Positions 1,556-16,171 of a stretch of DNA of 56,205 nucleotides are shown one piece after another. The stretch lies in NCBI RefSeq assembly GCF_001999325.1, contig NZ_MVAR01000027.1:9525-65729 (forward strand), read 5' to 3'. Both the position numbers and the translations under genes were made by a program. A model generated the notes under the pieces. The model was given only the letters and a program-made list of their open reading frames with translations, was not told the origin of the DNA and searched no databases. Each line of letters starts with the position of its first letter. Within the stretch, counting starts at the first letter, position 1. The stretch comes from Thioalkalivibrio versutus. GTDB lineage: Bacteria > Pseudomonadota > Gammaproteobacteria > Ectothiorhodospirales > Ectothiorhodospiraceae.

Positions 1556-2269
1556 ATGGCCCCCATGGTACCCCAATCGCGGTTCCTTCCCGCGCCCCTG
1601 CTTCTTGCGCTGATGGCGCTGCCGTTGGCGGTGCAGGGGATGGACCCCGGCGACCCGGACTACGACCCGCTGGAGGACGACAGCCTGTGGGGCGAGACGG
1701 TCTCCCCGGACCAGACCCAGACCACCAGTCCGGAGCTGACCTTCCTGCTGGAGGAGCCGGACCGGACTCCGCATCACCACCAGAACCAGATCCGCATCAC
1801 GCAGTCCTCGCTGGAGGACGGCTGGGCCGATCTGCGCCAGTGTCACAATGATGTGGCGGCCATTCGGCGCATGGTCATTGTGTACAATGAAGCCAGAATC
1901 GACGAGCTCCAGGTCGAGTCCACCCGCAATATCGAATCCGCGCGTGCCGAGGGCGATCGCGTGGACCTGCGCGGGGTGCAGCGGGACGCCGAGGTCTGCG
2001 TGACCGCGCGCATGAAGATCGTCGAGGACGAGGGGGACGGCGTCTATCGCCTGGAGAACGGCCCGTTCGTGCGCCGCTTCCTGGATGGCTACTTCCCGAT
2101 GCGCGTCACCATGGCCGTGAGCTGGGGCGATCTTGACCTGCGTCTGGCGGAGACCGATCCGGCCGACCAGGACGGGTTCGAGGTGGTCACCTCCGATCAC
2201 GGCTTCATGTTCGACACCTTGTTCGAGGGCGAACTGCGTACCCTGGTGCGGCTACGCAACAGCCATTAG
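1556..2269 (+). CDS. Secreted acidic protein of unknown function
   Basis: A 237-residue protein with a clear signal peptide: a short basic N-region, a leucine/alanine-rich core to about residue 24, and a cleavage-like AVQG. I chose the ATG at 1556 because an AGAGGG ribosome site lies eight bases upstream; a GTG at 1547 overlaps that site. The mature part starts with a very acidic, low-complexity stretch (DPGDPDYDPLEDD) and contains two cysteines (QCHND and EVCVT) that could form a periplasmic disulfide. It is divergent from yrfG, with about 32 bases between starts. I do not recognise the family. Confidence 0.7.
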   Translation: MAPMVPQSRFLPAPLLLALMALPLAVQGMDPGDPDYDPLEDDSLWGETVSPDQTQTTSPELTFLLEEPDRTPHHHQNQIRITQSSLEDGWADLRQCHNDVAAIRRMVIVYNEARIDELQVESTRNIESARAEGDRVDLRGVQRDAEVCVTARMKIVEDEGDGVYRLENGPFVRRFLDGYFPMRVTMAVSWGDLDLRLAETDPADQDGFEVVTSDHGFMFDTLFEGELRTLVRLRNSH

Positions 2270-7738: not shown

Positions 7739-9304
7739 TCAGTGACGGAAGTGGCGCATGCCGGTGAACAGCATGGCGATGTCGTGCTCGTTGGCGGCGT
7801 CGATCACCTCCTGGTCGCGCATCGAACCGCCGGGCTGGATCACCGCGGTGATGCCGGCCTCGGCGGCGGCGTCGATGCCGTCGCGGAACGGGAAGAAGGC
7901 GTCCGAAGCCATCACCGAGCCGGCCACCTGCAGGCCCTCGTCGGCGGCCTTGATGCCGGCGATGCGCGCGGAATACACCCGGCTCATCTGCCCGGCACCG
8001 ACCCCGATGGTCTGTTCGTCGCGGGCGTAGACGATCGCGTTGGACTTTACGTACTTGCCCACCTGCCAGGCGAAGCAGAGGTCCTTCATTTCCTGTTCCG
8101 AGGGCGCGCGCGCGGTCACGGTCTTCAGCTCCACATCGGCCAGGCTGCCGCGATCGGCATCCTGTACCAGCAGCCCGCCGCCGATGCGCTTGTAGTCGAG
8201 GCCGGGACCGACACCCGCCGGCGGGATCTCCAGCACGCGAACATTCTTTTTGGTGGCCAGGGCGCGCAGTGCGCCCGGGGTGATCTCGGGGGCGATGACC
8301 ACCTCGACGAACTGGCGGCTGACGATCGCGTGGGCGGTGTCGCCGTCCAGCGGCCGGTTGAAGGCGATGATGCCGCCGAAGGCCGAGGTCGGGTCGGTCT
8401 GGAAGGCGCGTTCGTAGCCCATCAGCTGGGTCGGGGCGACGGCCACGCCGCAGGGGTTGGCGTGCTTGACGATCACGCAGGCCCCGGCCTCGAACTGGCG
8501 CACGCATTCCCAGGCGGCATCGGCGTCGGCGAGGTTGTTGTAAGACAGTGCCTTGCCCTGGTGCTGGCGGTAGCTGGCCAGGGTGCCGGGTGCAGGCTGT
8601 GGATCACGATAGAACGCGGCGCGCTGGTGCGGATTTTCGCCATAGCGCAGGGTCTCGACGCGTTCGAAGGTGGCGTTCAGCTGTCCTGGGAAGGGGGCCA
8701 TCTCCCCATCCTCGTCGAGGGCCGAGAGGTAGTTGCTGATTGCGGCATCGTAGCGCGCTACGTGATCGAAGGCCGCGACCGCCAGGCGGAAGCGCAGCGA
8801 CTGCGGCACCTCGCCATGGTCGCCGATGGCCGCGGCGATCTCGCTGTACTGGTCGGGGCTGGTGGCCACGGCCACGTCGCGGTAGTTCTTGGCCGCGGCG
8901 CGCAGCATCGCCGGGCCGCCGATGTCGATGTTCTCGATGGCGTCTTCCAAGCTGCAGCCGGGGCGGGCCACGGTCGCCTCGAAGGGATAGAGGTTCACCA
9001 CCAGCAGGTCGATCGGCGGGATGTCCTGCTCGGCCATCACCGCGGAGTCGATGTCGCGCCGGCCGAGCAGTCCGCCGTGGATGCGCGGGTGCAGGGTCTT
9101 GACTCGGCCATCCATGATCTCGGGGAAGCCCGTGTGCGCGGAAACCTCGATTACCGGAAGGTTGTTTTCGGCCAGCAGGCGGGCGGTCCCGCCGGTGGAC
9201 AGAAGCGCCACGCCGCGTTCATGCAGGGCGCGGGCGAGCTCCACGACGCCGGTCTTCTCGGAGACCGACAAAAGGGCGCGCTGGATAGGGCGGCTGGGGG
9301 TCAT
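7739..9304 (-). CDS. purH: Bifunctional AICAR formyltransferase/IMP cyclohydrolase
   Basis: A 521-residue enzyme performing the last two steps of IMP synthesis using 10-formyltetrahydrofolate. The N-terminal MGS-like cyclohydrolase domain begins with [10 protein letters not shown] and holds STGGTA and VVNLYPFE; the C-terminal transformylase domain has RYGENPHQ and the KHANPCG loop. The frame stays open upstream to about 9460, but 521 residues from the ATG at 9304 matches the usual length, so the upstream part is read as leader. First gene of purHD. Confidence 0.96.
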
Positions 9305-9334
9305 GCGGGGCCTCGGGATCGCTGCAAAACGACC

Positions 9335-9340
9335 ATTATA
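9335..9340 (-). promoter_or_regulatory. Probable -10 element of the purH promoter
   Basis: On the minus strand the hexamer is a perfect TATAAT, about 30 bases ahead of the purH ATG, giving a leader of roughly 24 bases. No good -35 hexamer lies 16-18 bases upstream (it reads ATCCAT), so this may be an activator-dependent promoter. Confidence 0.45.
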
Positions 9341-9501
9341 TCGAACGCGCGGCCCGGATGGATCGGCATTCGGCGTCGCGAAGCCAGGGTCGCCAGACGG
9401 GCCCTCAGCTTGTAATTTTTGCGCAAAACCTTCAGGGTATAAAAACGATTTCGGACACAACGCCCGCGTTCAGACGCATCGCGCGGCGCCGTAAACGATC
9501 C

Positions 9502-9661
9502 CCGAGCCAGGCGGGATGGGCCCGCCAGACCACGGCTCGGCATCCGGGTACCGATTGCCCTCCGGATGTGCAGGAAGAACCGGCCAGGCCGGTGTCGGGT
9601 GCTGCGAACAACGCACCTGGCGCATTGATACCCGAACACCGGGCGGCACCCGCCTGGCTCG
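9502..9661 (+). ncRNA. Candidate structured leader RNA with two alternative folds
   Basis: Seen directly: a perfect 13-bp inverted repeat joins 9503-9515 to 9649-9661. Between the arms lie a 7-bp hairpin (9541-9547 with 9562-9568) and a 10-bp stem with one bulged A (9591-9600 with 9630-9640) capped by TGCG-AACAA-CGCA (9603-9615). Both arms of the long helix can also fold locally: 9502-9508 pairs with 9534-9540 around a nested GGCGGG/CCCGCC hairpin, and 9639-9646 pairs with 9650-9657 around a CAC loop. The folds exclude each other, as in regulatory leaders. Whether it is transcribed, and what it would sense, is inference. High GC content raises the chance of fortuitous pairing. Confidence 0.35.
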
Positions 9662-9734
9662 ATCGGGCTGCTGGCGAGACCGCCGTGTGATGCGGAGGTC
9701 GCGGTTTACTGCGTTTGCGGGGTGTTGTGCCGAC

Positions 9735-9756
9735 GGATCGGCCCAGAGGCCGGTCC
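9735..9756 (+). promoter_or_regulatory. 9-bp hairpin ahead of the betaine operon
   Basis: GGATCGGCC and GGCCGGTCC pair with one G-U around a CAGA tetraloop, ending 40 bases before the first gene. No T-run follows, so it is not a standard terminator; it could shape the leader or be a pause or attenuation hairpin. Confidence 0.4.
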
Positions 9757-9796
9757 AGTCACGCTTACAACAGCAGCAAAGCCAAGAGGAACCAGC

Positions 9797-10615
9797 ATGG
9801 CAGCGAATATCAAGAATGATCAGGACTTCGGCGAGAAGCCGACCGAACGTCGCGATACCGAGAACTATCTCAACGAGTACACCACCGGCTTCGTCGACAA
9901 GTGGGATGACCTGATCGACTGGGACAACCGCGCCAAGAGCGAAGGCACCTTCTTCATCGAAGAACTGAAGAAGCGCGGCGCCAAGCGCGTGCTCGACGTC
10001 GCCGCCGGCACCGGCTTCCATTCCGTGCAGTTGCGCGAAGCGGGCTTTGACGTGGTGACCGCCGACGGCGCCCCCGAGATGCTCGTCAAGGCCTTCGAGA
10101 ATGGTCGCAAGCGGGGTCACATCCTGCGCACCGTGCAGGCCGACTGGCGCATGCTGAATCGCGATATCTACGGCCGCTACGACGCCGTCGTCTGCCTGGG
10201 CAACTCGTTTACCCACCTGTTCAATGAACACGACCGCCGCAAGGCCCTGGCCGAGTTCTACTCCGCCCTGAACCACGATGGCGTGCTGATCCTCGACCAG
10301 CGCAACTACGACACCATCATGGACCATGGTTACTCGTCCAAGCACACCTACTACTACTGCGGCGACAACGTCCAGGTGCAGCCGGCCCACGTTGACGAAG
10401 GCCTGGCGCGCTTCCAGTACAAGTTCCCGGATGGTTCCGAGTACTTCCTGAACATGTTCCCGCTGCGCAAGGCCTATGTCCGCCGCCTGATGCGCGAGGT
10501 CGGGTTCCAGAAGATCGAGACCTACGGGGACTTCCAGGAGACCTATCGCGAGAGTGATCCGGACTTCTTCATCCACGTGGCCGACAAGCGTTATATCGAG
10601 GGCGAGGAACGATGA
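9797..10615 (+). CDS. gsmt: Glycine/sarcosine N-methyltransferase
   Basis: A 272-residue cytoplasmic methyltransferase carrying out the first steps of betaine synthesis from glycine: glycine to sarcosine and on to dimethylglycine, with SAM as donor. SAM motif I is VLDVAAGTGFHS near residue 63, and CLGNSFTHLF follows as in halophile enzymes. The ATG at 9797 has AGAGGA seven bases before it; the frame is open further up but without a good site. The stop overlaps the next start (ATGA), tying production to the second enzyme. The sequence is strongly acidic, as expected for a salt-adapted cytoplasm. Confidence 0.93.
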   Translation: MAANIKNDQDFGEKPTERRDTENYLNEYTTGFVDKWDDLIDWDNRAKSEGTFFIEELKKRGAKRVLDVAAGTGFHSVQLREAGFDVVTADGAPEMLVKAFENGRKRGHILRTVQADWRMLNRDIYGRYDAVVCLGNSFTHLFNEHDRRKALAEFYSALNHDGVLILDQRNYDTIMDHGYSSKHTYYYCGDNVQVQPAHVDEGLARFQYKFPDGSEYFLNMFPLRKAYVRRLMREVGFQKIETYGDFQETYRESDPDFFIHVADKRYIEGEER

Positions 10616-11460
10616 GCGAGAACTACTCCGACGCAGTCGAAACCGCTCGCGACTACTACAACAGCGAGGACGCCGACACCTTCTACAAGATGGTGTGGGG
10701 CGGTGAAGACCTCCATATCGGGCTGTACGAGTACAAGGACGAGCCGATCGGCGACGCCAGCCGTCGCACGGTCGCGCACATGTCCGACCTCCTGGGCGAG
10801 CCGCAGCCGGAATGGCGCGTGCTCGACATGGGCGCCGGCTACGGCGGTGTCGCCCGCTACCTGGTGGAAAACTACGGTTGCGACGTCACCGCGCTGAACC
10901 TGTCCGAGAAGGAAAACGAGCGCGATCGCGAGATCAACAAGGCGCGCCACCTCGACGACAAGATCACCGTGGTCGATGGCTCCTTCGAGAAGGTCGACGA
11001 GCCGGACGAGTCCTATGATGTCGTGTGGTCCGAGGACTCCTTCCTGCACAGCCAGAACGAGGCAAAGAAAAAGGTGATCCAGGAGGCCGCGCGCGTCCTG
11101 AAGCCGGGTGGCTGGCTGATCTTCACCGATCCGATGCAGACCGACGATTGCCCGGATGGCGTGCTGGACCCGATTCTGGCCCGTATCCACCTGGATTCGC
11201 TGGCGAGCCCGGCGCTGTACCGCGAGGCGGCCAAGGCGGCCGGCCTGGAAGAGGTCAGCTTCGAGGAGCACTCCGGTCAGATCTCGACCCATTACGGTCG
11301 CGTGAAGCAGGAGCTCGAGTCCCGCGAGGACGAGTTGAAGAACTACATCTCGCAGGACTACATCGACCGCATGAAGCAGGGCCTGCAGCACTGGGTCGAT
11401 GGCGGCAACTCGGGCTACCTGACCTGGGGCATCTTCCGCTTCCGCAAGCCGGCCCGCTAG
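10612..11460 (+). CDS. sdmt: Sarcosine/dimethylglycine N-methyltransferase
   Basis: A 282-residue SAM-dependent methyltransferase that completes glycine betaine from sarcosine and dimethylglycine. Motif I is VLDMGAGYGGVARYL near residue 65; a VVWSEDSFLHS segment and the LKPGGWL turn complete the fold. The GAGYGG version with a following LNLSEKE is typical of this branch and of related phosphoethanolamine methyltransferases. Translationally coupled to the preceding gene by ATGA. Each betaine consumes three SAM and yields three SAH; no SAH hydrolase is in this window. A strong hairpin just downstream closes the operon. Confidence 0.93.
   Translation: MSENYSDAVETARDYYNSEDADTFYKMVWGGEDLHIGLYEYKDEPIGDASRRTVAHMSDLLGEPQPEWRVLDMGAGYGGVARYLVENYGCDVTALNLSEKENERDREINKARHLDDKITVVDGSFEKVDEPDESYDVVWSEDSFLHSQNEAKKKVIQEAARVLKPGGWLIFTDPMQTDDCPDGVLDPILARIHLDSLASPALYREAAKAAGLEEVSFEEHSGQISTHYGRVKQELESREDELKNYISQDYIDRMKQGLQHWVDGGNSGYLTWGIFRFRKPAR

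Positions 11461-12379: not shown

Positions 12380-16171
<3,792 letters not shown>

Follow-up and report, generated by a model that had tools for sequence, protein, structure and literature searches.

The window, the whole stretch of 56,205 nucleotides of Thioalkalivibrio versutus DNA analysed here, contains a gap of 492 bases between the start of purH (9304) and the ATG (9797) of a divergently oriented operon for glycine betaine synthesis. The genes at this locus, together with the signals that delimit the leader of the operon, are the following:

7742..9304, minus strand: purH, the divergent neighbour (TIGR00355, 747 bits)
9410..9443, plus strand: promoter-like block, with TTGTAA at 9410-9415, a 17-nt spacer, and CAGGGT at 9433-9438 overlapping TATAAA at 9438-9443
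9785..9790, plus strand: Shine-Dalgarno sequence AGAGGA, beginning 12 nt 5' of the ATG in all 15 leaders compared
9797..10615, plus strand: GSMT, glycine/sarcosine N-methyltransferase (NF051855.1, 500.7 bits, cut-off 350)
10612..11460, plus strand: SDMT, sarcosine/dimethylglycine N-methyltransferase (top match NF041675.1, 414.8 bits, E 2.3e-124, below the curated cut-off of 550)

GSMT is also closely matched by the GSMT structures 5h02 and 5gwx in PDB (E 4.8e-125 and 8.6e-124). On the 3' side of SDMT lie a gene for an arginyltransferase (minus strand) and then metH (12380-16171). In the window, metH begins about 2.6 kb beyond the start of GSMT, with the same spacing in all 12 named Thioalkalivibrio records, so that methyl-group recycling is positionally linked to betaine synthesis.

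A DNA search of 40 relatives detected the leader in 12 genomes, all from one genus and including that of the window, and the coding end only in four further genomes. In a protein search of 30 genomes of the genus, GSMT is 92-100% identical to that of the window in 15 genomes (clade 1) and 80-84% identical at 10 loci of nine others (clade 2); the remaining genomes, mostly incomplete assemblies, include one with a GSMT fragment, one with a weak match only and four with none. The genus is assigned on the basis of 12 records titled Thioalkalivibrio, in which GSMT is 92-99% identical to that of the window. The 15 clade-1 loci all have purH as the divergent neighbour, and their leaders, 353-364 nt in length, fall into groups A (nine sequences, window included), B (four) and C (two).

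Conservation spans the region from 9410 to the ATG of GSMT. The promoter-like block itself is strongly conserved across the 15 leaders of clade 1, group C differing at some positions. Given that a sigma-70 scan yielded no site at this block, it is treated here as a putative promoter, from which transcription would start just after 9443; an RNA beginning at approximately 9446-9450 would extend over about 350 nt to the ATG. A transcript start downstream of 9661 had been named in the initial sequence-only reading as an argument against a leader RNA; the block lies upstream of this position and would place the start upstream of the structured element. At one locus (L010, around 1970-2015, reverse strand), the upstream portion of the block (CTTGTA..TTTTGCGCAAAAC) is tandemly duplicated, which suggests a regulator-binding site that overlaps or abuts the promoter. 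On the minus strand of the window, a perfect TATAAT hexamer at 9335-9340, kept as plus-strand CATTATA in the 12 sequences compared, probably belongs to the promoter of purH.

The segment 9450-9800, which the sequence-only reading had proposed for a folding check, is indeed more stable than its shuffles (-171 versus -152.6 kcal/mol, z -3.2, none of 100 shuffles as stable), and z ranges from -1.4 to -3.6 across the 15 leaders of this kind. Fold stability is, however, weaker evidence than comparison among relatives. Compensatory base changes, which had been expected in relatives if the structure were real, were found among the 15 leaders, and the structured leader before the betaine operon is real and evolutionarily conserved. 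As read from this comparison, the following elements, all on the plus strand, can be distinguished:

9452-9460 with 9725-9732: P1, long-range closing helix (117 of 120 cells paired; 8 double-change cells in 2 pairs)
9461..9488: P2 hairpin (147 of 150 cells paired; 10 double-change cells in 3 pairs)
9485..9621: conserved core, the basis of the covariance model R1
9498-9501 with 9573-9576: P3 helix, closing a junction that contains P4 and P5
9502..9540: P4 hairpin, whose AGACCAC internal loop hardly varies and which contains the 5' arm of a 13-bp inverted repeat
9541..9568: P5 hairpin (100% paired; U-A to C-G double change)
9579..9593: P6 hairpin (92.3% paired; A-U to G-C double change)
9596..9619: P7 hairpin (98.9% paired; double changes in 3 pairs)
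9631-9635 with 9663-9667: P8, weak helix around P9, present in the predicted folds of several group-A sequences only
9639..9657: P9 hairpin (74 of 75 cells of the five outer pairs paired; 7 double-change cells in 2 pairs)
9678..9700: hairpin in the predicted folds of the window and some group-A sequences
9735..9756: P12 hairpin, 28 nt 5' of the Shine-Dalgarno sequence

Helices P1-P7 and P9 are supported by covariation, and P8, the 9678-9700 hairpin and P12 by predicted folds; P12 is predicted in all 15 leaders despite strong sequence divergence. In P3, there is an A-U to U-A double change in group B, and the last pair is broken in three of the 13 distinct rows of the core alignment, including that of the window. 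The outer helix of P4 is 100% paired with a G-C to A-U double change, and its inner helix is 93.6% paired without any double change; the AGACCAC loop is among the most conserved spots of the leader (AAACCAC in one of the 13 distinct rows). When the P4 segment is folded alone, a different inner stem is predicted in two leaders (L022 and L025).

Model R1, which covers P3-P7 and was built from nine sequences of groups A and C, recovers the four group-B leaders, absent from the model, at 82-90 bits. The core alignment has 13 distinct rows; of 468 cells, 97.0% are paired, a value biased towards structure since the alignment was fitted to it. Double-change cells number 23 in the core compared to a shuffle mean of 8.3 (0 of 500 shuffles as high), and pairs with double changes number 7 compared to 4.5 (13 of 500 as high). 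By contrast, the core shows 19 further pair types, which does not exceed the shuffles (mean 20.1). When the core partners are slid by 1-3 columns, pairing drops to 29-46% and double-change cells to 0-2. For P1, P2 and P9, the strands of which were placed by hand and which, like the core helices, were chosen on the same sequences as those tested, the double-change cells listed above compare with shuffle means of 2.2 (0 of 500 as high), 2.8 (0 of 500) and 1.7 (1 of 500), respectively.

Searches at gathering score gave no match to Rfam 15 in the whole window and none to Rfam at 20 related loci, and a permissive search of 9250-9900 returned four sub-threshold matches (E 0.63 to 9.4). The c-di-GMP-II-GAG riboswitch (RF03169; 9609-9692, 19 bits, E 0.63, gathering score 40) was rejected as not conserved, the matching TGGCGAGACCG stretch being missing from groups B and C.

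The sequence-only reading had suggested that the leader may be a riboswitch or attenuator, with SAM, SAH, glycine, betaine or salt as a plausible signal, in which a perfect 13-bp helix (9503-9515/9649-9661) gives way to local hairpins. The repeat is present as described, and so are the local hairpins at 9502-9540, 9639-9657 and 9735-9756. When 9300-9830 was dinucleotide-shuffled 200 times, no perfect repeat of at least 13 bp appeared within a span of 200 nt (the whole window contains five such pairs), and the enzymes encoded downstream perform SAM-dependent methylation of glycine, which would suit a sensor of this kind. However, the pairing is perfect in only two of the 15 leaders (L017 and L019, -31 kcal/mol) and decays elsewhere: the best downstream duplex of the 5' arm amounts to -21.1 to -15.4 kcal/mol in the other seven group-A leaders, -15.6 to -15.9 kcal/mol in group B and -10.0 to -13.0 kcal/mol in group C, and the local hairpin P4 holds -18.1 to -22.9 kcal/mol across the leaders. 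The group-A energies would still allow a shorter long-range pairing in that group, where the strands involved are also held by their own hairpins. The two arms fall in separately conserved hairpins, the 5' arm being the 5' strand of P4 and the 3' arm mostly the 3' strand of P9, and no expression platform with conserved mutually exclusive folds was found across the leaders. A terminator scan of the plus strand of the window, the sole leader scanned, identified none inside the leader, which, together with the lack of an Rfam match at gathering score, also speaks against the switch. Thus, of the original proposal, the structured leader is supported and the exchange between folds is not; the conserved fold, made up of local hairpins and a closing helix, differs from the proposed switch, which we consider improbable.

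Nor do the predicted folds of the leaders include a conserved helix that sequesters the Shine-Dalgarno sequence. The GG of this sequence mostly pairs with a nearby CC at short range, and a distant partner within the leader is predicted in group B only (GGA with UCC at -64 to -66, in a P1 strand), where the pairing probabilities shift with the length of coding sequence folded. In the start codon, U and G are frequently predicted to pair, with partners that vary with the leader and with the coding length folded. A translated leader peptide, acting by attenuation or as an upstream ORF, could be suggested by one start codon that aligns in all 15 leaders (ATG in 13, GTG in two); its frames, however, stop after 9 to 52 codons and run through in three leaders, and because these ends differ there is no conserved peptide, so that this explanation is highly improbable.

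In 15 of the 30 genomes of the genus, R1 detects a single strong copy (82-167 bits), which in each case precedes GSMT. Three weak extra matches (21.7-24.6 bits, E 0.16-0.57) come from two fragmented genomes (G019 and G003), where they are located away from any GSMT match found. In 47 genomes of the family, the same 15 are positive, all from one genus, with no strong copy in the 17 family genomes outside the genus. Of 369 genomes drawn from the class, two are positive, both from this genus, under stricter filters that may miss weak copies. At 39 other loci searched with default filters, no match exceeded 13.3 bits (E 1.7).

These features agree with those of the smtA motif, an orphan RNA also designated Soda Lake RNA (HRC-65-1). 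The text of its report (Narunsky et al., 2024; PMC11109978) describes an RNA of more than 350 nt with multiple covarying stems, confined to Thioalkalivibrio and located in the gap that separates smtA from the divergent purH. The window leader lies in such a gap in the same genus, would measure about 350 nt from the putative start to the ATG, has multiple stems with covariation and, in the R1 searches, is found only in Thioalkalivibrio; the orientation of the promoter-like block agrees with the reported transcription towards smtA, Northern blots (unpublished data of those authors) having placed the RNA upstream of smtA on the same side (PMC11109978). No difference is apparent in a comparison made with the published text rather than the consensus figure, and by this description and the gene arrangement the window leader is very probably a copy of the motif. 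Given this publication, the RNA is already known and not new; a literature search under its names found no report beyond PMC11109978. According to the text of that paper, smtA encodes a class I SAM methyltransferase that is hard to tie to a pathway. Here, this gene is GSMT, the first gene of the GSMT-SDMT betaine operon; this identity, the distribution of the RNA and the syntenic loci without a recognisable copy are what the present analysis adds. The orphan large RNA occupies the 5' leader of an operon for betaine synthesis, a main osmolyte route of these soda-lake bacteria, and post-transcriptional control of betaine synthesis can be put forward as a testable hypothesis for its role.

The discoverers consider the motif unusually long for a riboswitch and, for this reason, likely not involved in cis-regulation (PMC11109978). 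The main rival to a role in cis is an independent noncoding RNA of large size that acts in trans and only shares a transcript with GSMT or is released from the GSMT message by processing, an explanation in keeping with the size and complex closed architecture of the element as well as with the judgement expressed in that paper. Apart from the three weak matches mentioned above, no copy was found away from GSMT in the searched genomes, and in the window there is no terminator between the element and the Shine-Dalgarno sequence, both of which argue against a separate RNA; we regard action in trans as possible but doubtful.

We slightly favour a role in cis, in which the GSMT-SDMT mRNA of one Thioalkalivibrio clade would carry a structured 5' leader of about 350 nt that folds into hairpin P2, P3 around P4 and P5, and hairpins P6, P7 and P9, all within the closing helix P1, followed by the last hairpin P12 and the Shine-Dalgarno sequence. 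Such a leader may act on the translation of GSMT or on mRNA stability rather than through transcription attenuation or the 13-bp switch. This role is consistent with a single strong copy per genome that always precedes GSMT, with the preserved Shine-Dalgarno spacing and leader length, and with the absence of a terminator from the window leader. It is further favoured by expression reports. In T. versutus D301, which presumably carries this leader, the mRNA of the two betaine genes is reported not to differ significantly at 0.4 and 3.0 M Na+, which led the authors to suppose post-translational control (PMC9062515); in T. nitratis ALJ2, the two genes are reported to be slightly up at low temperature (PMC8092127). 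The flat mRNA level in D301, as reported, argues against salt-driven transcription attenuation, and hence also against the 13-bp switch, and is compatible with control of translation; an operon under no regulation would show such a flat level just as well. Against the role in cis stand the view of the discoverers, as worded in their report, and the failure to find a conserved expression platform.

At the clade-2 loci, purH is divergent in eight of 10 and at one fragmentary locus, the leaders are about 338-366 nt long (10 loci), and a related block, TTGAAAT...CTTCAGGGTA, is present in most of the 10, with variants in three. At eight loci, the gap between purH and GSMT, the promoter-like block and the length of the leader are all preserved. 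The leaders there, candidate diverged homologues, are not convincingly recognised by R1. With the filters off, R1 gave 46 matches with E of at most 10 at the 10 clade-2 loci. The top-scoring match (13.2 bits, E 0.33) falls outside the leader, and the next (11.4 bits, E 0.69) is a sense-strand match within the leader of one locus (L035); in all, six of the 46 are sense-strand matches in leaders, compared to about two expected by length. RNAalifold predicts 46 pairs in the clade-2 leaders, 22 with a double-changed sequence, many of them broken in two or three of the 10; the most consistent element is a single hairpin (columns 140-159), and the fold z-scores are weak (-0.2 to -2.2). A broader scenario, in which the Soda Lake RNA is a new kind of large cis-acting sensor that responds to ionic strength, to cold or to a metabolite of the methylation cycle and governs the translation of betaine synthesis, and in which the clade-2 leaders are homologues that diverged rapidly and the RNA is in use throughout the genus, appears unlikely.

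Among GSMT leaders of other genera, plain counts of common k-mers were not above those in shuffles; in post hoc z-scored counts, the 9-mer CGTACATCT reached 7.3 compared to null maxima of 5.0-6.2, and the 10-mer CCCGCGACGA reached 7.7 compared to 5.1-6.1. A CCRYACATC-like motif, with the z of 7.3 given above, occurs 120-205 nt before GSMT at six loci from several other genera of the class (L047, L048, L056, L057, L062 and L064), at two of which (L047 and L057) it faces, by eye, a complementary GATGT/GGTGT; this motif is possibly another leader element. At a further GSMT locus, from an AT-rich genome (L050), the leader (300 nt before GSMT) has a strong fold z-score of -4.4 and by eye forms several consecutive hairpins.
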